DNA of 64,000 nucleotides from positions 1 through 64,000 of the forward strand of contig JABGQS010000007.1 of NCBI GenBank assembly GCA_018648645.1, read 5' to 3'. The notes under the pieces are model-generated. The model did not search any database, had not been told where the DNA came from, and saw nothing but the letters and a program-made list of their open reading frames with translations. The DNA is from Clostridia bacterium. GTDB taxonomy: Bacteria; Bacillota; Clostridia; Christensenellales; SZUA-584. The position numbers and the translations under genes are program-made. Below are positions 14,831-42,042 of this stretch, piece by piece. Positions within the stretch are counted from its first letter, which is position 1; each line of letters begins with the position of its first letter.

Positions 14831-16570
14831 CTATTTATACTTCGCTTTTTGGTGATAGTGTGTGTGCAGTAGCTCGTGCGCCAGATGCCCGTTTTCATCT
14901 CCAAGATAATCATCATAAAGCATTTGTATTTCGCCGTTCAAGTGCGACTTGCGTTTCTGCTTGTTGACGTCTTCCGAATATACCGATTTTGCACGCACAA
15001 CACGCGGGTCAAACTCCAGTCGCTTGCTTGCGCTGACGATCGGTTGTCCGCCGCCGTTTACGCAGCCGCCGGGGCAGCCCATAACTTCTATGAAGTGGTA
15101 CTGCTTCTTGCCGTCTCGAACCGACTCAAGCAGCTTCTTGGCGTTGCCCGTACCGTTTGCTACCGCTACGTTGATGTCCATGCCCGCAATAGTCAGAGAA
15201 GCTTCTTTTACGCCTGCGATACCGCGGATGCATTCGTAGTCGATATCGTCGAGGTTTTCACCCGTAAGTTTGTCGGCTACCGTTCGCAGCGCTGCTTCCA
15301 TAACGCCACCTGTTGCGCCGAATATAACGCCTGCGCCGCTCGACTCGCCAAGAACTTTGTCGAAGTCGGCTTCGGGCAGATTTACAAAATCGATGTTTGC
15401 TTGCTTAATCATACGCGCTGTTTCTCTTGTTGTCAGCACAGCGTCAACGTCTCTAAGACCGTTAACCGCCATTTCTTCGCGTTCCTGCTCATACTTCTTG
15501 GCGGTACACGGCATAACAGAGACCACAAAGATGTCTTTTGGATCGATTTTGAACTGCTCCGCATAGTACGACTTGATTACAGCGCCCATCATTTGATGCG
15601 GCGATTTGCACGATGAAAGATTGTCTAGGAAATCGGGGAAGAAGTGCTCGCAATACGTTACCCAACCCGGGCTGCACGATGTTATCATAGGCAGCTTGCC
15701 ACCGTTGCTGACACGATCTATAAGCTCAGCGGCTTCCTCGACAATTGTGAGGTCGGCAGCAAAGTCGGTGTCGAAAACTTTGTCGAAACCGATGCGTCGA
15801 AGTGCGTTTGCCATTTTGCCCGTTACGCCTTCGCCTGTCGGCATTCCGAACTCTTCACCGAGCGCAAAACGCACGGAAGGAGCGGTTTGAACAACGACGT
15901 GTTTCGTTTCGTCATGAATCGCGTCCCACACAGAGGTCAGTTCGTTACGCTCGCTGAGCGCGCCGACAGGGCACGAGATGATGCACTGTCCGCAGTTTAC
16001 GCACGGAACGTCTTCGAGCGATTTGCCGAACACCGGCTCTATAATCGTGTTGAAACCGCGCTGCGTTGTGCCGACTGCGCCGATTTTTTGTATGTTGCCG
16101 CACATTGCGACACAGCGTCTGCAAAGGATGCACTTGTTGGGGTCACGAACTATGGAAGCTGAGCCCGTGTCTTTGGGTCTGTCCATGTTTGCACCTTCGT
16201 AATGCACATCGTCTATGCCCATATCTTCGCAAAGCGTTTGCAGCTCGCACGTGCCGTTTCGCACGCAGCTTAGGCACCGTTTGTCGTGGTTGGACAGTAT
16301 AAGCTCCAAGTTGACCTGCCGCGCTTCCTGCACGGTTTTGCTGTTTGTGGAGATTACCATGCCTTCTGCCGCGGGGAGTGTACACGCAGCCTGTAGACCG
16401 CTGCCGCCTTCTTTCACTTCGACCAGGCAAATTCGGCATGCTCCGAGTGCGTTAATCCCCTTTAAGAAACACAGCGTCGGCACTTTTACTGCGGCCGCTT
16501 TTGCAGCTTCGAGTATTGAAGTATTCTTTTTGACTTTCACTGTTACGCCATCTATCGTTACAGATACCAT
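14831..16570 (-). CDS. hydA: [FeFe] hydrogenase catalytic subunit (NADH-linked, group A)
   Basis: 579 residues. Makes or consumes H2 at the H-cluster in a cytosolic HydABC-type complex. Domains in order: plant-type [2Fe-2S] (Cys 34, 45, 48, 63), His-Cys3 [4Fe-4S] (His95, Cys99, 102, 108), two [4Fe-4S] clusters (CILCRRCVAMC and CVNCGQCIISC, about 147-200), then the H-cluster domain with L1 TSCSPGWV (Cys299), L2 MPCTAKKYE (Cys355) and L3 GCPGGCVNGGGQ (Cys499, Cys503), and the C-terminal small-subunit segment. All cluster ligands are intact. With the NuoE- and NuoF-like partners it matches the NADH-dependent group A3/A6 enzymes; whether it bifurcates electrons with ferredoxin cannot be read from sequence. 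The maturases HydEFG are not in this window. Confidence 0.95.
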   Translation of the reverse strand: MVSVTIDGVTVKVKKNTSILEAAKAAAVKVPTLCFLKGINALGACRICLVEVKEGGSGLQAACTLPAAEGMVISTNSKTVQEARQVNLELILSNHDKRCLSCVRNGTCELQTLCEDMGIDDVHYEGANMDRPKDTGSASIVRDPNKCILCRRCVAMCGNIQKIGAVGTTQRGFNTIIEPVFGKSLEDVPCVNCGQCIISCPVGALSERNELTSVWDAIHDETKHVVVQTAPSVRFALGEEFGMPTGEGVTGKMANALRRIGFDKVFDTDFAADLTIVEEAAELIDRVSNGGKLPMITSCSPGWVTYCEHFFPDFLDNLSSCKSPHQMMGAVIKSYYAEQFKIDPKDIFVVSVMPCTAKKYEQEREEMAVNGLRDVDAVLTTRETARMIKQANIDFVNLPEADFDKVLGESSGAGVIFGATGGVMEAALRTVADKLTGENLDDIDYECIRGIAGVKEASLTIAGMDINVAVANGTGNAKKLLESVRDGKKQYHFIEVMGCPGGCVNGGGQPIVSASKRLEFDPRVVRAKSVYSEDVNKQKRKSHLNGEIQMLYDDYLGDENGHLAHELLHTHYHQKAKYK

Positions 16571-16585
16571 ATCTATATAACTCCT

Positions 16586-18373
16586 TTATTTCTTGTCAAT
16601 AGCCGCAAACTTGCATTTGTCCATGCACGCTCCGCATTTGATGCAGTCGTTTTGGTTAATCAAGTGTGCTTCCTTTTTGTCGCCGGAAATCGCGTCAGTC
16701 GGGCATACCTGTTTGCACGCACCACAACCAATACACTTGTCGTTGATAATGTAGTTAAGCAGCGCTTTGCAGTGACCGGCCGGACACTTCTTGCCGTTGA
16801 TGTGAGCTTCATACTCGTCTCTGAAGTACTTTAACGTGGACATCACCGGGTTTGGTGCCGATTTACCAAGACCGCACAGCGAAGATATGCTGATGTTTTT
16901 GCCGAGGCGTTCCAGCTTTTCGATATCGCCCTGCACACCTTGCCCTGCAACGATGCGCTCTAAGATTTCGAGCATGCGCTTTGTGCCGATTCGGCAAGGG
17001 GGACATTTGCCACATGACTCGTCGACTGTGAAGTCGAGGAAGAAGCGCGCAACGTCTACCATACAGTTGTCTTCATCCATGACGATAAGACCGCCGCTGC
17101 CCATCATTGAACCGATAGAAAGAAGCGAGTCGTAGTCAATGGGGGTGTCAAGATGCTCGTCAGGGATACATCCGCCGGAAGGTCCGCCCGTTTGAGCAGC
17201 CTTGAACTGCTTGCCGTCAGGGATGCCACCGCCGATGTCGTAAATAATCTCTCTTAGCGTTGTGCCCATCGGGATTTCGAGCAAACCTGTGTTGACGATT
17301 TTGCCGCCGAGTGCGAACACTTTGGTTCCTTTGCTAGTCTCCGTGCCCATAGAGCTGAACCACTCTGCGCCGTTTAGCACAATCTGCGGAATGTTCGCGA
17401 GTGTCTCTACGTTATTGATAATGGTTGGCTTGTTGAACAATCCCTTTTGCGCAGGAAACGGTGGCTTTGGTTTCGGTTCGCCTCTAAAGCCTTCGATTGA
17501 CGAGATAAGCGCCATTTCCTCACCGCAGACAAATGCGCCAGCGCCGAGTCTTATTTCTAGGTCGAAATCGAAGCCTGTGTCAAATATGTTTTTGCCGAGA
17601 AGTCCGTATTCCTTGGCCTGCTCGATAGCAATTTCGAGCCGCTGTACAGCGATTGGGTACTCTGCGCGAACGTAGATATAGCCCATGTCTGCGCCAATCG
17701 CGTAACCTGAAATCGCCATGGCTTCGAGAACGGCGTGGGGGTCGCCCTCAAGCACACTTCTGTCCATGAATGCACCCGGGTCGCCTTCATCGGCGTTGCA
17801 GATGACGTACTTTTGAGCTGAGTCCTCGTCCTTGGCAAACTGCCATTTTAGTCCGGTGGGGAAGCCACCGCCACCACGTCCTCTAAGCCCGCTGTCCTTG
17901 ATAACGTCGAGGATTTGCTGCGGTTTAAGCTGCGTCAAGCATTGCCCGAGCGCTTTGTATCCGTCAAACGCAATGTACTCGTCGATTTTCTCAGGGTCGA
18001 TGATGCCGCAGTTTCTAAGCGCAATACGCTCCTGCATTTTATAGAAGCCGATGTCGTCAAGCGATGTGATGATATTCGCATCTGCGTCTTTGAAAAGCAG
18101 ACGATCTACGATTCTGCTGTGTTTGAGATGTTCAGATACAATTTCCTGCACATCTTTGTCAGCAACTTTCGAGTAGAAGCTTCCTTCCGGGTATACGATG
18201 ACGATTGGTCCCGCTTCGCAAAGACCAAAACATCCTGTTTTTACTACCTTAACTTCTTTTTCAAGCCCTGCTTTTTTAATCTCAACGTTTAATTTCTCAA
18301 ATATTTTTGGCGATCCTGCTGCGTTGCAGCTTGTGCCGCCGCAAACAAGCACATGAGAACGATAAATGTCCAT
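16586..18373 (-). CDS. hydB: NuoF-like NADH-oxidising subunit of the hydrogenase (HydB)
   Basis: 595 residues. Accepts electrons from NADH through FMN and passes them to hydA. N-terminal thioredoxin-like [2Fe-2S] domain (CGGTSCNAAG, KTGCFGLCEAGP), then NuoF core with RGRGGGGFPTGLKW (FMN/NADH site), ICNADEGDPGAFMDR, and the [4Fe-4S] site SCGKCPPCRIGT plus SLCGLG, and a C-terminal 2[4Fe-4S] ferredoxin domain (CIGCGACKQVCP, CIKCGACMDKC) absent from respiratory NuoF. This architecture is typical of HydB in Thermotoga and Clostridia. Fifteen bases before hydA. Confidence 0.94.
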   Translation of the reverse strand: MDIYRSHVLVCGGTSCNAAGSPKIFEKLNVEIKKAGLEKEVKVVKTGCFGLCEAGPIVIVYPEGSFYSKVADKDVQEIVSEHLKHSRIVDRLLFKDADANIITSLDDIGFYKMQERIALRNCGIIDPEKIDEYIAFDGYKALGQCLTQLKPQQILDVIKDSGLRGRGGGGFPTGLKWQFAKDEDSAQKYVICNADEGDPGAFMDRSVLEGDPHAVLEAMAISGYAIGADMGYIYVRAEYPIAVQRLEIAIEQAKEYGLLGKNIFDTGFDFDLEIRLGAGAFVCGEEMALISSIEGFRGEPKPKPPFPAQKGLFNKPTIINNVETLANIPQIVLNGAEWFSSMGTETSKGTKVFALGGKIVNTGLLEIPMGTTLREIIYDIGGGIPDGKQFKAAQTGGPSGGCIPDEHLDTPIDYDSLLSIGSMMGSGGLIVMDEDNCMVDVARFFLDFTVDESCGKCPPCRIGTKRMLEILERIVAGQGVQGDIEKLERLGKNISISSLCGLGKSAPNPVMSTLKYFRDEYEAHINGKKCPAGHCKALLNYIINDKCIGCGACKQVCPTDAISGDKKEAHLINQNDCIKCGACMDKCKFAAIDKK

Positions 18374-27651: not shown

Positions 27652-29148
27652 TTATTTTCTGAGCCGTTTCTCGCCTTCCAGTTCCGTTATGTTTTTGATA
27701 TCCTGCGTTACTTCGAGCGTGCCTAAATACTCGCCCTTTTTGTTGCGAACAGCGAAATATCGTATGTAGGCAAACACTTCGCCCATCTTAATCCAGAAAT
27801 CCTCATTGTCTTTTTTGCCCGATCGCAAATCTGCTACAATCTGCTCGACAATCTGAACACTCTTTGGCGGATGGCAAAGCCTTACCTGCCTGCCGATGAT
27901 GGTGGGCGGGCGGTCGAAAACGCGCTCTTTGCCCTGCGTGAAGTATCGCACTTTGTCGTCTGCACCAACGAACGTCATGTCCAGCGGTACAGTGTTCAAT
28001 ATCGCGTTAACTTCCTCGGACGTCAGCGATCCCGCGTCAAACTTGATTTGTGTTTGGCTGTCGACCTTCACAACGTCTGGGGGAGCATTGACAGGTGGAG
28101 TAGCTTTGGCGGGCGGAACAGCTTTGGCGGGCGTATCTGCAGAGACTCGGGACGATCTGCGCTTGTGTTCAACCTCCGGCTCATCGTCTACATCCGGCTC
28201 ATCGTCTACATCCGGCTCATCGTCTATCTCCGGCTCGTCATCTACCTCCGGTTCATCATCTACTTCCGGCTCATCGTCTACCTCCGGCTCATCGCCTACA
28301 TCCGGCTCATCATCTGCCTTCGGCTCATCGTCTACCTCCGGTTCATCGTCTACCTCCGGTTCATCGTCTACCTCCGGCTGCCAACGTTTGGGAGGGTCTA
28401 TCAGAGTAAAGCCAATTTCTGCGCTGGACGCTTCGATTTGCACCCAATCTTCATGTGAAAACTTATCGAGAATCATCGGTATCATGATTTCTTCTTCTTT
28501 GAAAATCATCTCGGTAACTTGCTCGGTCATCTCGTTTACAGGACCCTCGATTTGAAACGGTGCTACCGGCGGGCCTTCGAGTCGCTCGATTACAGCTTTT
28601 ATCTTGTCTCTAATCTCGTCATCAACACCCCACATTACCTGCGGCGGCGCAGTGATATCGTACTTCTCCATAATCGGGAAGATTAGATTTTCCTTGCGAG
28701 AATAATGTTTACTGATTGTCAGCAATTCCTTAATTGCTTCAAGCAAAGCTTCTTTGTTTTTTTCTGAACCGTTAGCAATATAGTTTTTCAATTTGGCTGA
28801 AACTTGGTTGTTTAGCCAAGCCTGTATTGCGATGTTCTCTGCCTTAATTGTGAGAACGGGATGTCCTGCACTCATTTTATTAGGGGCAGCATCTTCTTTA
28901 TGTATGTCTTCGATAGAGCCTTTGAAAACGGCAGCGTGAACATCACAAAGTCGCTGGATGTCGGTAATTGGCATGCCTTCGTTAACAAGCGCTTGTTCCA
29001 TCTCGGCAATTTCTGTCGCGGTAACGCCGGTGGTCAGCTTGTTAAACTCCTCCTGAACGTCCTCTACAGTTGCGCCGTCATGCAGCCGTTTGATCAGCTC
29101 CTTTAATTTATCTTGCCGAAACTGTTTGTTCTGAATTAATTCACTCAT
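27652..29148 (-). CDS. DUF438 / hemerythrin-like / PAS protein with acidic repeat linker
   Basis: 498 residues. An N-terminal DUF438 domain (about 1-95: LKELIKRLHDGATVEDVQEEF, MPITDIQRLCDVHAAVF), a hemerythrin-like helical bundle (about 95-255, HYSRKENLIFPIMEKYD and EEEIMIPMILDKFSHEDW carrying His/Glu candidates for a di-iron site), an acidic hexapeptide repeat (about 258-325), a Pro/Ala linker, and a C-terminal PAS domain (about 365-498, NTVPLDMTFVGADDKVRYFTQG). Usual DUF438 proteins are about 400-420 residues, so the repeat is the additional part. Likely an oxygen, NO or redox sensor; the output is unknown. SD AAGGAGAC. It is co-oriented with the DUF1858 gene 11 bp upstream, a typical pair. 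Confidence 0.85.
   Translation of the reverse strand: MSELIQNKQFRQDKLKELIKRLHDGATVEDVQEEFNKLTTGVTATEIAEMEQALVNEGMPITDIQRLCDVHAAVFKGSIEDIHKEDAAPNKMSAGHPVLTIKAENIAIQAWLNNQVSAKLKNYIANGSEKNKEALLEAIKELLTISKHYSRKENLIFPIMEKYDITAPPQVMWGVDDEIRDKIKAVIERLEGPPVAPFQIEGPVNEMTEQVTEMIFKEEEIMIPMILDKFSHEDWVQIEASSAEIGFTLIDPPKRWQPEVDDEPEVDDEPEVDDEPKADDEPDVGDEPEVDDEPEVDDEPEVDDEPEIDDEPDVDDEPDVDDEPEVEHKRRSSRVSADTPAKAVPPAKATPPVNAPPDVVKVDSQTQIKFDAGSLTSEEVNAILNTVPLDMTFVGADDKVRYFTQGKERVFDRPPTIIGRQVRLCHPPKSVQIVEQIVADLRSGKKDNEDFWIKMGEVFAYIRYFAVRNKKGEYLGTLEVTQDIKNITELEGEKRLRK
28177..28374 (-). repeat. 18-bp tandem repeat tract encoding about 11 acidic hexapeptides
   Basis: About eleven in-frame 18-bp units encode EVDDEP and variants (DVDDEP, EIDDEP, KADDEP, DVGDEP). 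The units differ by single bases. The tract joins the hemerythrin-like and PAS parts of the DUF438 protein. Confidence 0.9.
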
Positions 29149-33750: not shown

Positions 33751-34343
33751 ATATAGCGAATAAGCTGACACTACTCAGGATTGCATTTATACCAATTTTT
33801 ATTGCGTTTTTCTACATCAACATAAAATATCAATACCATTATGCGTGTTTGGTTTTTATTCTAGCGTCGATAACTGACGGGATTGACGGGAGCCTTGCCA
33901 GAAAGCATGATATTGTTACCGATTTTGGTAAGCTGATTGATCCGATTGCCGACAAGCTGCTGGTGTGCAGCGCGCTGATTATGTTAATGACAAAACCTGA
34001 TCTATTTAAGGTAAGCGAAATCGTTATAATTATACTAATCGGCAGAGAATTCATAGTAAGCGGCTTTCGTCTTCTTGCTGCATCAAAAGGCAAAGTGGTA
34101 GCTGCGGATCGGCTTGGCAAAATTAAAATGGTGGTGCAGATCGTTGCTATTTGTTTTGTGCTTGTTGAGGGCGGTATAGTTTTTGAAGGTTTGTTGGTAC
34201 AATGGAACATGCCAAGCAGCTGGCCGATAATCGGGACAATGCTTGCCGGACAGGTTCTTATGTGGGCCAGCGCTGTTCTTGCTGTGGCGAGCCTGATAAG
34301 TTATTTTATCAAAAACAAAGAGATACTAAAAACAATGTTCTAA
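33747..34343 (+). CDS. pgsA: CDP-diacylglycerol--glycerol-3-phosphate 3-phosphatidyltransferase
   Basis: 198 residues, integral membrane enzyme making phosphatidylglycerol phosphate, first step to phosphatidylglycerol. The CDP-alcohol phosphatidyltransferase motif is complete: DGIDGSLARKHDIVTDFGKL followed by IDPIADKLL (DxxDGxxARxxxxxxxxGxxxDxxxD). Four to five membrane helices. Overlaps rimO by four bases (ATGA). The rimO-pgsA-recA order is common in Firmicutes. Confidence 0.95.
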   Translation: MNIANKLTLLRIAFIPIFIAFFYINIKYQYHYACLVFILASITDGIDGSLARKHDIVTDFGKLIDPIADKLLVCSALIMLMTKPDLFKVSEIVIIILIGREFIVSGFRLLAASKGKVVAADRLGKIKMVVQIVAICFVLVEGGIVFEGLLVQWNMPSSWPIIGTMLAGQVLMWASAVLAVASLISYFIKNKEILKTMF

Positions 34344-34415
34344 AAACATCGCTGAGTCCAAAAATTCGGACAGAACAGTGGTAGAATATAAATATACACA
34401 ATACAGGAGGATAAC

Positions 34416-35468
34416 ATGTCAGCAGAAAAACAGAAAGCGTTGGATATGGCGTTAAATCAGATAGAGAAGCAGTTTGGCAAAGGTAGCGTGATGAAACTGG
34501 GGGACTCGGTCGGAGTGCCGGTCGATGTGATACCGACGGGTTGTTTGGAGCTCGACATTGCGCTAGGCGTCGGTGGTATACCGCGCGGCAGGATTGTCGA
34601 GGTTTACGGACCCGAGTCTTCGGGTAAGACGACAGTTGCGCTGCACATGGTTGCCGAAGCGCAAAAGCTGGGCGGAGCGGCAGCGTTTATCGACGCAGAG
34701 CATGCGCTCGACCCGACATATGCGAGCAACCTTGGCGTGGACATCGACAACCTTTACGTCAGCCAGCCCGACACGGGTGAGCAGGCGCTTGAGATTACCG
34801 AAGCGCTTGTGCGCAGCGGCGCTATTGACATCATCGTTATCGACTCGGTTGCGGCGCTTGTGCCAAAGGCCGAGATTGACGGAGAGATGGGACAGTCGCA
34901 CGTGGGTCTGCAAGCGCGGCTGATGAGCCAAGCGCTCCGAAAGCTTGCGGGTATTGTCAGCAAATCGGGCACGGCTACAGTATTTATCAATCAGCTCCGC
35001 GAAAAAGTGGGCGTTATGTTTGGAAGCCCCGAGACCACTCCCGGTGGCAGAGCGCTCAAGTTCTATTCGTCGGTAAGGCTGGATGTGCGGCGCATAGAAA
35101 CGCTGAAAAACGGTGCGGACATGATAGGCAACAGAACGCGCATTAAAGTGGCAAAAAACAAAGTTGCTCCGCCGTTCAAAAAGGCAGAATTCGACATATT
35201 CTATGGGCAGGGCATTTCGGCAGAAAGCAGCGTTATCAGCCTCGGCGTGGAGATGGGACTTGTGAAGAAGTCGGGCTCGTGGTTCTATTACAACGAAAAC
35301 CGCATTGCGCAGGGCAGGGACAATGCGCGGCTCTATCTGAAAGAGAACAAGGACATTTACGAAGAAATTAAGGCGAAGATACTCGATGAATATGGTCTTG
35401 GTGAAAAAGGAAAGAAGGCGGCTGAGGAGGTAGAAAAGCCTGAAAAAGTATCAGAAAATGAAGTTTGA
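34416..35468 (+). CDS. recA: recombinase RecA
   Basis: 350 residues. Strand-exchange ATPase and SOS co-protease. KQFGKGSVM at the N-terminus, Walker [10 protein letters not shown], Walker B VIDSVAAL, the DNA-binding loop L1 [20 protein letters not shown]2 with [13 protein letters not shown], and an acidic C-terminal tail ([14 protein letters not shown]). ACAGGAGG precedes the ATG, and TAGAAT near 34381 is a likely -10. I saw no clear LexA box, although GTCCAAAAATTCGGAC upstream is a small inverted repeat. Confidence 0.98.
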
Positions 35469-35475
35469 AATTAAT

Positions 35476-35514
35476 TCGGGTCAGTTGATATCTTATCAAT
35501 TGACCCGATTTTTT
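35476..35514 (+). terminator. recA terminator
   Basis: 15-bp arms 35476-35490 and 35494-35508 (TCGGGTCA...TGACCCGA, one mismatch) followed by six Ts. Confidence 0.88.
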
Positions 35515-35555
35515 GTTGGAAATCATCCATGAAATTAGGAAAAGTCAGAATATCG

Positions 35556-36395
35556 CTAGCAACAAATCTGAGCAAATGACTCACCAAGAGGAGACAGTTC
35601 GATACGTCCCTCTTTAATTTTAGGAGAATACTCTGTTGCTACAAAGTGCTTAACAGTTTGGGGCTTAATCGTTGGGAACGAATCAACATCTGATTCCTCA
35701 TGTATTTTTTTCACTAGAGATACGCTTTTAAGCATTAATTTATACTCTTCAGTCTTATGGAATTTGTCGTATTTTTTAGGGTCAGAAAAGCATTCATGAA
35801 ATGAAATTGAAGCTAGACCGAGGCGAATTAAATTGGATATCGAAATTGCATTTTCTTTGATATTTTGATTCTCTTCATTTGATAGGAAAACGTTTGTTTG
35901 AGAAATAACTGATTGACCATTCTTATTTTCTAACCTATATTCGACTAATGGTTCCTGGCTCTCTTTTAATACAGCAATGTTTTGAGCATCAAGCGGAGAT
36001 AACTGTTTAATTATTTCAACATAACAACTGTGGGTTTGATTTGCTTTTTGACAGTCCATTGAAGATGCAATTACTTTTGCAAACATTTCCCGAATGACTG
36101 CACTTTCAATAAAGAATTTTGAAGCTTCCAAAGCGGGACCTATTATATTTAAGGGCGGTTCCTGTAGGTTTTCTGGGGGTATGCTTTGAATGTTGGTAGC
36201 GATTCTATTCTTGTAGTCTGATAAATTCTGCTCACGTAAGGCACGTTTCTTTTCAACAAACAAATGAAAATTCCCAAAAACCAATTCCCAGCAGTCATCT
36301 AGGGTCTGCAATGGTCCTCCGACCTTTCCCTTTGTTGCTAACGCAGTTACAAAACTAGTTCCCATAGAAATTAGAGCAATAGCAGTAGGATCCAT
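35556..36395 (-). CDS. DUF4393 / Abi-alpha family protein
   Basis: 279 residues. The segment PALEASKFFIESAVIREMFAK, SCYVEIIKQLSPLDAQ and the N-terminal PTAIALISMGTSFVTALATK match DUF4393, a family classed as abortive-infection alpha, often near phage-defence genes or alone in accessory DNA. No signal peptide; a hydrophobic N-terminal stretch may touch the membrane. It lies alone and inverted between recA and the structured RNA, and its DNA is more AT-rich than its neighbours, suggesting acquisition. ATG 36395 follows GAGGTGATT; the GTG at 36404 is part of that site. A phage-defence role is inference. Confidence 0.72.
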   Translation of the reverse strand: MDPTAIALISMGTSFVTALATKGKVGGPLQTLDDCWELVFGNFHLFVEKKRALREQNLSDYKNRIATNIQSIPPENLQEPPLNIIGPALEASKFFIESAVIREMFAKVIASSMDCQKANQTHSCYVEIIKQLSPLDAQNIAVLKESQEPLVEYRLENKNGQSVISQTNVFLSNEENQNIKENAISISNLIRLGLASISFHECFSDPKKYDKFHKTEEYKLMLKSVSLVKKIHEESDVDSFPTIKPQTVKHFVATEYSPKIKEGRIELSPLGESFAQICC

Positions 36396-36609
36396 TAGAA
36401 TCACCTCAAGATATAGAGTAAGTTATTGTCGCAGCAAATCATTATACATTGTTTGTGAAGAAAATTTAATCTAAACATTATACAAATATAATAACATACT
36501 GATGACAAAAAGTGAAATAAAAAGAAGTACTTGGATGGTAAGTTTGCTTGCTTGTATGTAAGTTGGCATAGTTGAGTAGTCAGAAAAAGTAAATTATGTG
36601 TGAACATAA

Positions 36610-36638
36610 TTGAAATTATCGCGTAAATATTGTATAAT
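36610..36638 (+). promoter_or_regulatory. sigma-A promoter of the OLE-like RNA
   Basis: TTGAAA (36610-36615), 17-bp spacer, TATAAT (36633-36638). Transcription would start at about 36645, just before the 5' strand of the closing stem. The stretch 36405-36609 before it is AT-rich and holds no other feature I can see. Confidence 0.8.
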
Positions 36639-36644
36639 GTAAAA

Positions 36645-37262
36645 AAAGGTGGTGCAGTATTCTAGTCGGTACTGCGATTTTGAAAGCGGGCTTAAAAATC
36701 CGCAAACGGGCACATCGATGAAGTTTCTTGTGTTGGCCTAGGGCGCCCAGCCCGGGGCTGATGCTGGGAGTTAAGGTCGTGGGGCGATCCGCAAAGGCAT
36801 GCGGGCGTTTGACCCCGCTTCCGTGGAGACCCAAGCAGGTGGCAGAAAGGTTTGTTACTACTTGGGATTAAACCTGTGGTGCGGCGCAAGCTGTGGACAG
36901 AGTAGCCTGCCTTGAGTTATACGGGGTGTATTGTAGAACACGCCCGGGCGCACAAAGTACACGTGCACTCGGCAGCGATTGCTTCAAAAAACCCGTGTGG
37001 CAAAAGAGGCTAAAAATCGTTTGATGCTGTAGAGGAAAACTCCTAGACTGTATGAGTGTAATGCGTTAATATAAGCGCTGACACCAAGATATTTTGGAGA
37101 TTATAGTGTGGTCTAAACGGCAATCCAGTCATGCGAACGGTAACGTCGCGTTTTAGAGTTTAATGGGAAACCGCTTCATCGGTGACGGGGAGTATCTCTA
37201 AAGGGAAATCCTACTGGACCTAAGCTGCAAGGTTTATCCAAGGTATCACCACCGTTTTTTTT
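36645..37262 (+). ncRNA. ole: OLE RNA (ornate, large, extremophilic), about 610 nt
   Basis: A GC-rich stretch without a real reading frame, bounded by its own promoter and a terminator. GGTGGTG (36648-36654) pairs perfectly with CACCACC (37247-37253), closing the molecule, and eight Ts follow, so the RNA ends near 37262. Length about 610 nt is that of OLE RNA. The next genes are a small multi-pass membrane protein (OapA-like), tlyA, nadK, argR, recN and spo0A, the OLE neighbourhood known from Bacillus halodurans and anaerobic Clostridia. OLE RNA binds OapA at the membrane and its loss makes cells sensitive to ethanol, cold and magnesium. The call rests on size, ends and context; I could not align the consensus. 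tmRNA, RNase P and 6S are excluded by sequence or size. Confidence 0.82.
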
Positions 37263-37299
37263 ATTTTATTAAAAGGGAAGGCTCGTTAAAGAGCAAATT

Positions 37300-37869
37300 A
37301 TGGCAAAAAAGAAAAAGGGCGTCAAGTTTTGGGCGCTAAAGATATTTATTATTACGCTGATTCTCACAGCAGGAGTAAGCGTTATTTCAGAGTCGCTGAT
37401 GGGCAGGCTGCCCACCATTGCGGCTGCTTTTATTATATTGTTTATTATACTCATCGGTGTCACCTTTGACATGATTGGAATTGCGGTAGCAACGTGCGAA
37501 GTTTCGCCATTTGTTGCGATGGCGTCAAGAAGGATACGAAAAGCAAAAAGTGCAATAAAGCTGCTGAAAAACGCGGATGTAGTGTCGAATATATGCAGCG
37601 ATGTTGTCGGTGACATATGCGGTATCGTCAGCGGCGCGACAGGTGTTGCCGTTGCGGTAAAGGTTGCTATGGCGGGTGACACGCGCGAAATCATTTGGGT
37701 AATAGTAATATCGAGCGTGATTGCAGCACTGACTGTTGCGGGCAAAGCGATAGGAAAAACGATTGCTATTAGTAAGAACAAGCAGATTGTCAGCTTTGTA
37801 TCGTCAGTTATTACGGTGTTTATGCGTGATGACAAAAGCAGCACATCCAACGGCAAAAAGCAGGATTAA
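37300..37869 (+). CDS. oapA: OLE-associated membrane protein OapA
   Basis: 189 residues. Basic N-terminus (MAKKKKGVKFW), then four membrane helices: about 11-30, 36-60, 108-130 and 135-155, with a cytosolic basic segment between helices 2 and 3 (ASRRIRKAKSAIKLLKNAD) suited to RNA contact, and a Lys-rich tail. Size and topology match OapA, the protein that forms a 2:1 complex with OLE RNA and brings it to the membrane; the core is distantly DUF21/CNNM-like, a family linked to magnesium. Position 38 bp after the RNA terminator is the diagnostic context. The ribosome-binding site is weak (AAAGAG), so read-through from the RNA promoter may regulate it. Confidence 0.8.
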   Translation: MAKKKKGVKFWALKIFIITLILTAGVSVISESLMGRLPTIAAAFIILFIILIGVTFDMIGIAVATCEVSPFVAMASRRIRKAKSAIKLLKNADVVSNICSDVVGDICGIVSGATGVAVAVKVAMAGDTREIIWVIVISSVIAALTVAGKAIGKTIAISKNKQIVSFVSSVITVFMRDDKSSTSNGKKQD

Positions 37870-37880
37870 TCTATACATAA

Positions 37881-38074
37881 AACGGGAGCAGCGAAGCCAA
37901 GGAAGAAAGAGTCTCGACTAGGAAAACATGCGAGAATTTCGCTGGTTAAGTAATACGCAAAATCGCGAACAGGAGCAGCGAAGCTCAGGAAGAAAGAGTC
38001 TCGACTAAGAAATGCGAGAATTTCGCTGGTGTAAGTAAGAGTGAAATCGCAAAACAGGAGCAGCGAAGCTGTGG
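37881..38074 (+). repeat. 2.2 tandem copies of an 86-bp hairpin-forming repeat
   Basis: Copy 1 is 37881-37967, copy 2 37968-38052, and a partial copy 38053-38074 begins AACAGGAGCAGCGAAGC. Each full unit has an outer stem CAGCGAA/TTCGCTG and an inner stem TCTCG/CGAGA around a short loop. The AGGAG of the partial third copy is the ribosome-binding site of tlyA. Full copies are about 90% identical. No transposase or coding frame is present. Confidence 0.88.
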
Positions 38075-38862
38075 ATAAGAAACGGATTGACGTATATCTA
38101 TTTGAAAACGGACTGGCAGTAAGCCGAGAGAAAGCGAAAACGTTTGTGATGGCGGGCGCTGTTTTTATTGACGGCAAAAGATGCGACAAGCCTTCAGTTA
38201 TGGTGGCGGATGGCCAGAAAGTAACCGTGAAGCAAAGGCAGGAGTTTGTTAGTCGCGGCGGCAAAAAGCTGAAGAAAGCGCTCAGCTGCTTTGACTTAGA
38301 CTTAACCGATAAGGTTGCGATTGATGTAGGCGCTTCTACCGGCGGGTTCACCGACTGCATGTTGCAAAACGGGGCGAAGTACGTATACGCGGTGGATGTC
38401 GGTTACGGTCAACTTGCTTGGAGTTTAAGGAATGACGAGCGCGTAGGCGTGATGGAGAGAGTTAACGCGCGCCATATGCAAAAGGACATGTTCGAAAAGC
38501 AGATTTCCTTTGCCAGCATTGACGTGTCTTTTATATCAATAAAGCTGATATTGCCCGCACTGCTTCGTGTGCTTGACTCACCTTTTACAATAGTTGCACT
38601 TGTCAAGCCGCAGTTTGAAGCGGGCAGAAGCAAGGTGGGCAAGAAGGGCGTTGTGCGCGAAAAAGCCGTGCATATCAGCGTGATTAACGAGATAGTAGAA
38701 TTTGCGCAAAGTATAGGACTGGTTCTGTGCGGGCTCGATTTCAGCCCGATTAAAGGACCGGAAGGCAACATCGAATACTTGCTTTGCTTAACTGACAGTG
38801 GCAATGATGCGCACATAGACTCGTCAGCGGTTGTAAACGCCTCGCACCAAAACGCCATATAG
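38071..38862 (+). CDS. tlyA: TlyA family rRNA 2'-O-methyltransferase (hemolysin A family)
   Basis: 263 residues. N-terminal S4 RNA-binding domain (RIDVYLFENGLAVSREKAK, VTVKQRQEFVSRGGKKL) and FtsJ-type SAM domain with AIDVGASTGGFTDCMLQNGA (SAM loop), DVGYGQL, DVSFISI and VKPQFEAG, including the K-D-K catalytic set expected of TlyA. Probably methylates 2'-OH cytidines in 16S/23S rRNA. GTG 38071 is ten bases after the AGGAG provided by the upstream repeat; the frame also opens at GTG 38041, within repeat copy 2, which is less likely. Part of the OLE neighbourhood. Confidence 0.9.
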   Translation: MDKKRIDVYLFENGLAVSREKAKTFVMAGAVFIDGKRCDKPSVMVADGQKVTVKQRQEFVSRGGKKLKKALSCFDLDLTDKVAIDVGASTGGFTDCMLQNGAKYVYAVDVGYGQLAWSLRNDERVGVMERVNARHMQKDMFEKQISFASIDVSFISIKLILPALLRVLDSPFTIVALVKPQFEAGRSKVGKKGVVREKAVHISVINEIVEFAQSIGLVLCGLDFSPIKGPEGNIEYLLCLTDSGNDAHIDSSAVVNASHQNAI

Positions 38863-38901
38863 GCAAATAATAAGTTTTTATAACAATATCCCTGAATACG
38901 G

Positions 38902-38930
38902 TTGTATAATTATTCGAGATTGATTATAAT
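38902..38930 (+). promoter_or_regulatory. sigma-A promoter placed for a leaderless nadK mRNA
   Basis: TTGTAT (38902-38907), 17-bp spacer, TATAAT (38925-38930). The expected start, about seven bases on, falls at 38937-38939, the nadK ATG itself. Confidence 0.7.
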
Positions 38931-38938
38931 ATCTGCAT

Positions 38939-39775
38939 ATGGACTTAAAATATGTAGGGATTATTTCTAACCCACAAAAGGATATTGGTTTTGTTGGAGC
39001 TGCGAGGGTAGCCAAAGTGTGCAGAGATCGCGGTATTGCTGTTTGTTTTGACAAAAACGGAATGCCGAACGGCGAGTGCGACAGCATCGATTATACCAAA
39101 GTGGATTGTTTGTTTGTGCTTGGGGGAGACGGGACGCTGCTAAAGGCCGCGACAGATGCCGGCGAGCACGGGGTATGCATACTCGGCATTAACCTTGGGC
39201 GGCTCGGGTTTTTGACTGAAGTTGAGCTTAACGAAATCGAAAGCGCGATTGAACTCATCATCGCGGGAGAGTGTTTTATAGAGCAGCGATTGATGTTGAG
39301 CGGCAGTGTGGAGGGCGAGGACGATTTTGCTGTGACTGCGCTTAACGACATTGCACTGGTGAAAAAAGACATGGCACGCATGATCAACATCGAGCTGATT
39401 ATCAACGGGGCGTTGGCGGACAAGATGCCGTGCGACGGTATGCTGATTGCAACACCGACAGGATCAACGGCATATTCGCTATCTGCCGGAGGACCTATTG
39501 TGTCGCCGAAGCTAAAGTGTATACTGGCAACACCGCTTAATGCGCACACGCTGCACAGCAAGCCTATTATTGTTTCGCCCGACGACATAATTACGCTGAA
39601 ACCGACAGTGAGAAATGGCGCGCTGCTGACGAGTGACGGTGTGGTTGTGCGGGAAATATACAGCGGCGAGATTGTAAAGATAAAAAAATCAAAGTACTTA
39701 GCAAATTTTGTACGGTTTCAAGAGGACTATTTCTATCCATTATTAAGATCGAAGTTTCTAAATTGGGATAAGTAA
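38939..39775 (+). CDS. nadK: NAD kinase
   Basis: 278 residues. Phosphorylates NAD to NADP. FVLGGDGTLLKAA (GGDG signature), GINLGRLGFLTE, ATPTGSTAYSLSAGGPI (NE/D and GSTAYxxSAGG signatures) are present. There is no Shine-Dalgarno sequence before the ATG and the promoter's -10 ends only eight bases upstream, so translation from a leaderless or almost leaderless mRNA is predicted. Followed by argR after 20 bases. Confidence 0.95.
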   Translation: MDLKYVGIISNPQKDIGFVGAARVAKVCRDRGIAVCFDKNGMPNGECDSIDYTKVDCLFVLGGDGTLLKAATDAGEHGVCILGINLGRLGFLTEVELNEIESAIELIIAGECFIEQRLMLSGSVEGEDDFAVTALNDIALVKKDMARMINIELIINGALADKMPCDGMLIATPTGSTAYSLSAGGPIVSPKLKCILATPLNAHTLHSKPIIVSPDDIITLKPTVRNGALLTSDGVVVREIYSGEIVKIKKSKYLANFVRFQEDYFYPLLRSKFLNWDK

Positions 39776-39795
39776 ATTCGGAAGGGGCGTGTTTG

Positions 39796-40245
39796 ATGAA
39801 AGCTGGAAGACAAAACATGATACTCAAGGTCATCGACGAAAACAACGTTGAAACACAGGATGAGCTTGCGGCAAAGTTAAAAAAAGAAGGGTTTGAGGTT
39901 ACTCAAGCCACAATATCGCGCGATATCAAAGAGCTAAAGTTGATTAAAGTGCAGTCGGGCAGCGGCAGCTACAAGTATACTTCGAGCGGAGTAGAGCAGA
40001 CGGGCAAGCTCGACGTGTTCAGACGCGTATTCCGTGACACTGTTATATCGGTAGAAGAGGCGGCGGCGTTGGTCGTTGTTCATACGATGCCGGGCAGCGC
40101 TGGAGCGGCCGCAGAAGCCATTGACGAGTTGAAAATGGCGGAGATTGCAGGGTGCCTTGCCGGAGACAACACGATATTTGTAGCGCCAAAGCAAGCAGAC
40201 AAGATGACAAAAGTGGCAGACGCGCTGCGTACGATGATACGGTAG
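39796..40245 (+). CDS. argR: arginine repressor ArgR
   Basis: 149 residues. N-terminal winged helix (RQNMILKVIDENNVETQDELAAKLKKEGFEVTQATISRDIKEL; SRDIKEL is the recognition helix) and C-terminal oligomerisation/arginine-binding domain with HTMPGSAGAAAEAID and GCLAGDNTIFV (GDDTI-type Asp site). Controls arginine biosynthesis and catabolism genes. ATG 39796 with GAAGGGG; the TTG three bases upstream is ignored. Its place between nadK and recN is the standard Firmicutes order. Confidence 0.95.
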   Translation: MKAGRQNMILKVIDENNVETQDELAAKLKKEGFEVTQATISRDIKELKLIKVQSGSGSYKYTSSGVEQTGKLDVFRRVFRDTVISVEEAAALVVVHTMPGSAGAAAEAIDELKMAEIAGCLAGDNTIFVAPKQADKMTKVADALRTMIR

Positions 40246-40266
40246 CACTAGCAGGGTGAGGCATAA

Positions 40267-41958
40267 ATGTTAAGCAAATTGGTAATCAAAAATATAGCCT
40301 TGATTGACGCGCTCGAGATTGACTTGTCGGGCGGATTGAACATACTCTCGGGTGAAACCGGCGCCGGCAAATCGATTATTGTCGATTCTATGAACTTGGC
40401 ACTTGGTGAGCGCGCGGACAGGGAGCTGATACGCACCGGAGCGCAAAAAGCGGTGGTTGAGGCGTGGTTTAGCGGGTTCTCAAGAGCAATCGTCGATATA
40501 TTAGCAGCGCAGGAAATTGAAATTGACACATCGCAGGATTTGATACTTTCACGCGAGCTCAGTTTGACCGGTAAAAACGTGTGCCGCATCAACGGTGTGT
40601 TGACAACGCTGGCAACACTGAAGGAAGTCAGCGATTTGCTCGTGGATATTCACGGGCAGCACGAGCACCAGTCGCTGTTGCACGAAAAAAACCATATCGC
40701 GATGTTGGACGAGTTCGGCGAGGGTATCGAGGCCGCTAAGGAAGCCACAGCGGATGTGTTCATTAAGTATACCGGTGTAAAAAAACGATTGCTGGCTCTT
40801 GCAGGCAGCGACGGGGACAGAGAACGCCGCATAGATATGCTCCACTATCAAATTGACGAAATACAAAAGACCGCGATTGAAAAGGGTGAAAAGGGCTCTC
40901 TTGCTTTGCAGAAAAAGCGGATGAATGCACAAGAGCGGATCATGGAAGCACTGTCGAGTGCATATGGGGCGTTGTACGAAGACGACAACAACGTTCTGCT
41001 TTCACTGAAAGATGTCAAAAGTTCTCTCATCAGCCTTGATGATGTGGACAAGAAGTACACAGAGTTTGCCGGCAAGGCGGACGAAGCGTATTATATTTTG
41101 GAAGAGATTGCAGCTAGTGTGCGCGACGAGATGGACGAAAGCTATTATGACGCTAACGAGCTGGAAGAGATAGAGGAGCGGCTTGCATTGATAAGCTCGC
41201 TGAGCAAAAAGTACGGTGATGCCCTGCTGGATGGCGAATATATCAAAAACGCGCAGCAAGAGCTGACTGATTTGGTTGACAGCGAAGAGCTTATCGGAAA
41301 GCTGGAGGAAGAGCTTACCGAGCGAAAAACAGCGCTTTATGCGCGGTCTGTCAAGCTAAGCGAGCTGCGAAGTGCGGCGGCATTCGAATTTGCACAAAAG
41401 ATACAAGAGCAGCTTAGTGACCTAGGGATGCTGGATGCCAGCTTTAGCGTGCACGTATCGGATATCAAATCTATCGACGAGTGTGCGTTTAGCAGAAACG
41501 GTATCGATTCGGTAGCGTTCTATATCTCTACAAACCGCGGAGAGCCGCAGAAAGCGCTTCGTAAAATTGCGTCGGGCGGCGAGGTTTCGCGTATTATGCT
41601 TGCGCTGAAAAATATTGCCGCGAACGAAGGCGGAATACCCACAATGATCTTCGACGAGATTGACGTGGGAATCAGCGGGCGAATGGCGCAGGTGGTTGCA
41701 AGGAAGCTGCAAAACATCGCGAATGCGCGTCAGGTTGTCTGCGTTACTCACTTGCCACAGATAGCGAGCATGGCGGACACGCACTTTCTGATACTCAAAA
41801 GCAGCAGTGAGACAAAGACAACGACGTCGCTAACTAAGCTTGAGGGCGACATTCGCATCGATGAAATTGCGCGGCTGGCGGGGGGAGACTCGAGCGTATC
41901 GGCGCAGCACGCAAAAGAAATGCTGCAGCGGGCAGGCGAGTACAAAAAGGTAACGTAA
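40267..41958 (+). CDS. recN: DNA repair protein RecN
   Basis: 563 residues. SMC-like ATPase in double-strand-break repair. Walker A GETGAGKSIIVDSM at the N-terminus, coiled-coil arms in the middle (about 155-370), signature ASGGEVSRIMLALKN and Walker B MIFDEIDVGISGRM, then THLPQIASMAD. Length is normal. AGGGTGAGG precedes the ATG. In sporulating Firmicutes spoIVB normally follows; here spo0A comes next. Confidence 0.96.
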   Translation: MLSKLVIKNIALIDALEIDLSGGLNILSGETGAGKSIIVDSMNLALGERADRELIRTGAQKAVVEAWFSGFSRAIVDILAAQEIEIDTSQDLILSRELSLTGKNVCRINGVLTTLATLKEVSDLLVDIHGQHEHQSLLHEKNHIAMLDEFGEGIEAAKEATADVFIKYTGVKKRLLALAGSDGDRERRIDMLHYQIDEIQKTAIEKGEKGSLALQKKRMNAQERIMEALSSAYGALYEDDNNVLLSLKDVKSSLISLDDVDKKYTEFAGKADEAYYILEEIAASVRDEMDESYYDANELEEIEERLALISSLSKKYGDALLDGEYIKNAQQELTDLVDSEELIGKLEEELTERKTALYARSVKLSELRSAAAFEFAQKIQEQLSDLGMLDASFSVHVSDIKSIDECAFSRNGIDSVAFYISTNRGEPQKALRKIASGGEVSRIMLALKNIAANEGGIPTMIFDEIDVGISGRMAQVVARKLQNIANARQVVCVTHLPQIASMADTHFLILKSSSETKTTTSLTKLEGDIRIDEIARLAGGDSSVSAQHAKEMLQRAGEYKKVT

Positions 41959-41990
41959 CGCTCTGCAAAAATTGTAATTGAATATCAACG

Positions 41991-42042
41991 AGCATCCTAA
42001 AAACAGCAGCCGAGCACGCTGCCAAACGTGGGGTGTTTTTTT
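41991..42042 (+). terminator. branched terminator after recN
   Basis: Outer pairing AGCATCC (41991-41997) with GGGTGTT (42031-42037, two G-T pairs) encloses a small hairpin GCAGC/GCTGC (42006-42022); Ts follow. It isolates spo0A from the recN transcript. Confidence 0.5.

Follow-up and report, generated by a model that had tools for sequence, protein, structure and literature searches.

OLE RNA (RF01071) is said to go back to Puerta-Fernandez et al. 2006, with examples reportedly found in H. halodurans, C. acetobutylicum and C. botulinum, and to our knowledge it ranks among the largest structured RNAs of bacteria for which no biochemical function is known. It has been recorded in 2,822 Bacillota genomes (PMC11332333) and falls into three classes: a full-length type; variant 1, in which P7-P9 are short and the OapB site is often absent; and variant 2, in which P7 and P8 are missing (Fernando and Breaker, PMC11332333). 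According to the main text of a cryo-EM study, OLE is a dimer in which L9.3 nucleotides of one copy base-pair with their counterparts in the other, and its authors note there that the L9.3 tetranucleotide has switched from GGCC to GAUC or AGCU (PMC12286853). In our own sampling, OLE was present in 217 of 299 genomes of the phylum; for the order the figure was 135 of 297.

The window, a 64,000-nucleotide stretch of DNA from a Clostridia bacterium, contains what by its sequence is a genuine and complete OLE RNA, an added member of an already known class. A covariance search of the stretch, the check that the initial annotation had itself named for its reading of a complete OLE locus, matches RF01071 over model positions 1-616, untruncated, at 36633-37268 (+), with 456.6 bits (E 1e-131) against a curated cut-off of 50 bits. 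When 34000-42000 was compared with all Rfam families, OLE was the single significant match, the next one inside the RNA standing at E 4.5, as expected by chance. The whole genome holds exactly one copy, while zero copies were found in 14 control genomes, and blastn against plasmids gave zero matches. Within the aligned blocks, 232 of the 249 strongly conserved (upper-case) consensus letters are identical (93%) and 17 differ; the highest identity among the OLE RNAs found is 84.9% (L013/L031), to that of the MAG Eubacteriales bacterium STB_2. The stretch folds with a minimum free energy of -222 kcal/mol (z = -2.8; 0 of 20 shuffles as stable). That it contains no gene, as had been stated, agrees with our reading frames: the only ORFs of at least 60 aa that overlap it are two antisense frames of 72 and 65 aa, both with TTG starts and both at the RNA 5' end, and three checks of antisense and local ORFs on the stretch found no coding signs. 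The features of the locus are as follows.

36610-36638 (+): promoter-like site TTGAAA-N17-TATAAT, from a consensus scan, 11 of 12 letters
36645-37262 (+): OLE RNA gene, full-length type, about 618 nt, from the RF01071 match
36648-36654 (+): 5' strand of the end helix, GGUGGUG (GGTGGTG), pairing with 37247-37253
36957-36973 (+): P9.3 hairpin, GCAC-AAAGUACAC-GUGC, from the P9-region fold
36964-36967 (+): L9.3 loop core GUAC, self-complementary, from the P9-region fold and aligned with L013
37247-37253 (+): 3' strand of the end helix, CACCACC, perfect complement of GGTGGTG, with covariation
37255-37262 (+): U-tract, T8, presumed 3' end by termination, from sequence
37300-37869 (+): oapA, OLE-associated membrane protein A, 189 aa, from relatives, OLE neighbourhood and predicted fold

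The exact ends of the approximately 618-nt RNA are placed by the promoter and the U-tract and are to that extent putative, and both elements are retained in sister genera. The promoter had been described as TTGAAA-N17-TATAAT, and the letters at 36610-36638 are indeed these. Five same-family loci (L010, L011, L013, L031 and L032) have TATAAT at a near-equal distance from GGTGGTGCAGTA, the spacing being measured from the conserved RNA start GGTGG(T/C)GCAGTA, together with -35 boxes that resemble TTGAT(A/T). The perfectly complementary ends of the initial annotation, GGTGGTG and CACCACC, were tested for covariation because the Rfam structure line shows them unpaired. In 137 sequences the longest Watson-Crick run between the ends averages 6.60, as against 4.38 when each 5' end is matched with the 3' end of another species (highest value in 50 shuffles, 4.63). 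Although this shuffle leaves relatedness uncorrected, the helix is secure, since many differing pair types match: GGTGGT/ACCACC, GACGGC/GCCGTC, CGGCGGC/GCCGCCG, GCAGTGGT/ACCACTGC and others. We take it to correspond to the P1 stem that is included in the published domain 2 of OLE (PMC12265935). A run of 6-8 T follows the end helix in 7 of 7 loci compared, and the T-run that had been read as a terminator is present here as T8; a simple terminator scan shows no hairpin at 37253, because the stem in front of the U-tract joins the 5' and 3' ends of the RNA and is not a local hairpin.

The RNA is of the full-length type, given its complete P7, P8 and P9 and the 232 of 249 conserved letters. All three stems are aligned as complete stems in the RF01071 alignment, and the shortening or loss of P7-P9 that marks the variants is not what we find. 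A truncated OLE, of variant 1 or variant 2 of Fernando and Breaker, is suggested by the lower-scoring OLE of same-order genomes, several of them small, and by stems that fall below the Rfam consensus in length, P7 by 7 letters and P8 by 2; it is nevertheless very unlikely, because the RNA is not shorter than the 616-position model, its 3' domain, including the CGGUGACG loop, is aligned throughout, and the genome encodes an OapB homologue and a candidate OapC, whereas the variant-bearing clades are mostly without both (PMC11332333). The variable hairpin at 37055-37085 (+), flanked by the conserved CUAGACUGU and the 3' domain, is about 30 letters long, compared with 6 in the Rfam consensus.

The genes for these partner proteins lie elsewhere in the genome. 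The OapB homologue (L162:5092-5376, minus strand), in the order map-oapB-infA, matches PDB 7k9b, 'OLE-associated protein B', at E 8.1e-13; a search for the KOW domain had returned only rplX and nusG, and OapB was then located by its position between map and infA. There are two L7Ae-fold genes, one YbxF-type beside rpsL and one YlxQ-type paralogue, and the YbxF-type protein is our candidate for OapC, an assignment that rests on the YbxF/L7Ae family. A bS21 gene is present. The genome has a single CNNM/MpfA-type gene, in agreement with the report that OLE species carry at most one MpfA (PMC11332333). A whole-genome search with the N-terminal domain of DXP synthase gave weak matches only, probably to transketolase- or dehydrogenase-like proteins; dxs is often found next to OLE, and this genome, which is 95% complete, may have no true copy of it.

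The L9.3 loop, through which OLE dimers make contact, differs here from that of the closest relatives. Its core is GUAC in the window and GGCC in 4 of 4 same-family relatives (L004, L010, L011 and L013), and in L013 the flanks are the same as in the window around a GGCC core (AAAGGCCAC). Both substitutions occur together and the palindrome is thereby kept; either one alone would break self-complementarity. Across the anchored sequences, about 180 of 244 have GGCC. For the remainder we took one loop per non-GGCC lineage, curated by hand because two automatic ways of finding L9.3 misplaced the apex in some sequences; the positions of 3 of the 15 loops were judged by eye, and three ambiguous lineages (L235, L253 and the unanchored L230/L233/L244-L246) were excluded. 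Watson-Crick tetranucleotide palindromes are found in 11 of these 15 lineages, compared with 5.1 expected when the letters are shuffled (P ~6e-4) and 3.5 with random letters (P 3e-5), and in 8 of 12, compared with 3.9 expected (P 0.006), when the three eye-placed loops are removed; these P values are indicative, since the loops were curated after the data had been seen. Beyond the types given in the main text of PMC12286853, where GUAC is absent as an L9.3 type, the palindromes comprise GUAC (the window, family f31), CGCG (family f24), UGCA, CCGG, GCGC and possibly CUAG. Self-complementarity is favoured and not universal, since lineages with non-palindromic loops exist: GGCA (family f17), a poly-A-like loop (L018), CGCCG (L255) and GGCU (L159).

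The GUAC of the window and the other non-GGCC loops support, as far as sequence comparison can and independently of cryo-EM, the proposal that OLE acts as a homodimer in cells. On balance we lean towards a reading in which L9.3 is selected for self-complementarity and is free to switch among palindromes (GGCC, GAUC, AGCU, GUAC, CGCG, UGCA, CCGG, GCGC and perhaps CUAG), in-cell dimerisation is real, and dimers might be lineage-selective; the window would then represent one natural switch, from GGCC to GUAC. The same loop bears on whether the RNA could be a decayed, non-functional remnant of OLE in this lineage. Changes at 17 of 249 strongly conserved letters and the occasional defective OLE genes in the published survey (PMC11332333) would fit such decay, yet the whole model is matched, the promoter, end helix, U-tract and oapA are intact, the changes include the double substitution that preserves the L9.3 palindrome, and the defective genes were reported where OapA is absent, whereas OapA is present here; a remnant is thus highly improbable.

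The protein encoded at 37300-37869 is an OapA homologue. It has at least 565 relatives by tblastn, with identity up to 64-70%, and OLE was detected in the fetched loci of its homologues, the signal being weak in L070, whose contig is cut. It has no Pfam (0.001) or NCBIfam match. In the AlphaFold model (mean pLDDT 80), the four best fold matches are to the CNNM/CorC transmembrane domain (Z 13.0, 12.2, 11.8 and 11.7), with the next unrelated fold at Z 9.5. Part of the weight for this predicted CNNM-like fold is borne by the published likeness of OapA to MpfA and the CNNM/CorC Mg2+ transporters (PMC11332333), because helical proteins can reach Z 13 by chance. The gene order is recA - Abi_alpha (opposite strand) - OLE - oapA - tlyA - nadK - argR - recN - spo0A, and all of these genes except oapA are confirmed by Pfam; the placement of the RNA before a small membrane protein and a tlyA-nadK-argR-recN run was therefore correct, oapA being recognised by homology and fold. 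Although the RNA lies directly upstream of oapA, so that co-transcription is possible, and polycistronic transcription is reported in H. halodurans (PMC12265935), the chance that it is some other long structured RNA or a riboswitch-like 5' UTR leading oapA is vanishingly small, since the covariance score already refutes a non-OLE reading and other Rfam families are remote, with the next match at E 4.5.

Two further observations concern the surroundings of the RNA. The Abi_alpha gene, 35556-36404 (-), lies between recA and the OLE promoter (PF14337, 163 bits; also the PADLOC candidate defence family PDC-S47). It appears to be an insertion specific to this lineage, because in the sister loci L031 and L032 recA is followed by OLE, either directly or after an OsmC-like ORF, and Abi_alpha is lacking. 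In the gap between oapA and tlyA, 37880-38070 (+), a unit of about 90 bases (GGGAGCAGCGAAGCCAAGGAAGAAAGAGTCTCGACTA...GCGAGAATTTCGCTGG) occurs about twice, and a further partial copy enters the tlyA start.

Elsewhere in the window, 14831-16570 (-) encodes an NADH-dependent [FeFe] hydrogenase of group A6 (887 bits, above the cut-off), bearing out the description of the host as a hydrogenase-bearing anaerobe, and a NuoF-like flavoprotein partner is encoded at 16586-18373 (-). The pair is likely an enzyme of the electron-bifurcating type, in agreement with an anaerobic lifestyle. A 498-aa protein encoded at 27652-29148 (-) contains about 12 near-identical copies of the acidic repeat EVDDEP between an N-terminal part and a PAS-like C-terminal part; it has no informative NCBIfam match. 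The window also contains spo0A, the gene for a sporulation regulator.

The identification of this locus as OLE rests on the agreement of the full-length RF01071 match, the OapA neighbour, the partner-protein homologues and the covariation of the end helix, and all the sequence statements of the initial annotation (promoter spacing, complementary ends, T-run and gene order) hold. Almost certainly, the locus is the ole gene of a Clostridia bacterium that lives anaerobically and probably forms spores. A promoter of its own would drive synthesis of an RNA of about 618 nt that has paired ends and stops at the U-tract. By homology to the experimentally studied OLE RNAs of H. halodurans and Clostridium, two copies would dimerise through A-A pairs in L4, contacts of L5, L6 and L7, and the L9.3 kissing loop; OapA, the product of the next gene, would anchor the dimer at the membrane, and the OapB and bS21 homologues and the candidate OapC would bind the RNA to form a particle that may help the cell to withstand stress from cold, alcohol, Mg2+ and the carbon source. 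The sequence itself shows the RNA family and its completeness, the covarying end helix, the OapA neighbour with its CNNM-like predicted fold, the partner genes and a self-complementary L9.3 loop, and from homology this species would be expected to express the RNA, dimerise it, place it at the membrane and use it under stress. Published ideas about OLE activity (a ribozyme, a bTOR hub, a membrane-spanning RNA) are neither supported nor weakened by these results, and this OLE leaves the biochemical function of the RNA out of reach. Every verified member adds slightly to the comparative record; what the window contributes is a naturally occurring pair of substitutions in the loop of the dimer contact, with the palindrome intact.

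Compared with known systems, the predicted OapA fold aligns with CNNM-CorC proteins (MtCorB, 7m1t; CorC, 7cff) over 123-133 residues at Z 11.7-13.0; unlike those proteins, OapA has neither CBS nor CorC/HlyC domains, and the sequence identity is 11-15%. With OLE RNA (RF01071) the locus shares a full-length covariance match, oapA immediately 3', homologues of OapB and bS21, a candidate OapC, one CNNM gene, a sporulation regulator nearby and an anaerobic Clostridia host. Unlike known OLE RNAs, it has recA upstream with an Abi_alpha gene between, an insert of about 30 rather than 6 letters in the variable hairpin, and an L9.3 core of GUAC in place of the usual GGCC.
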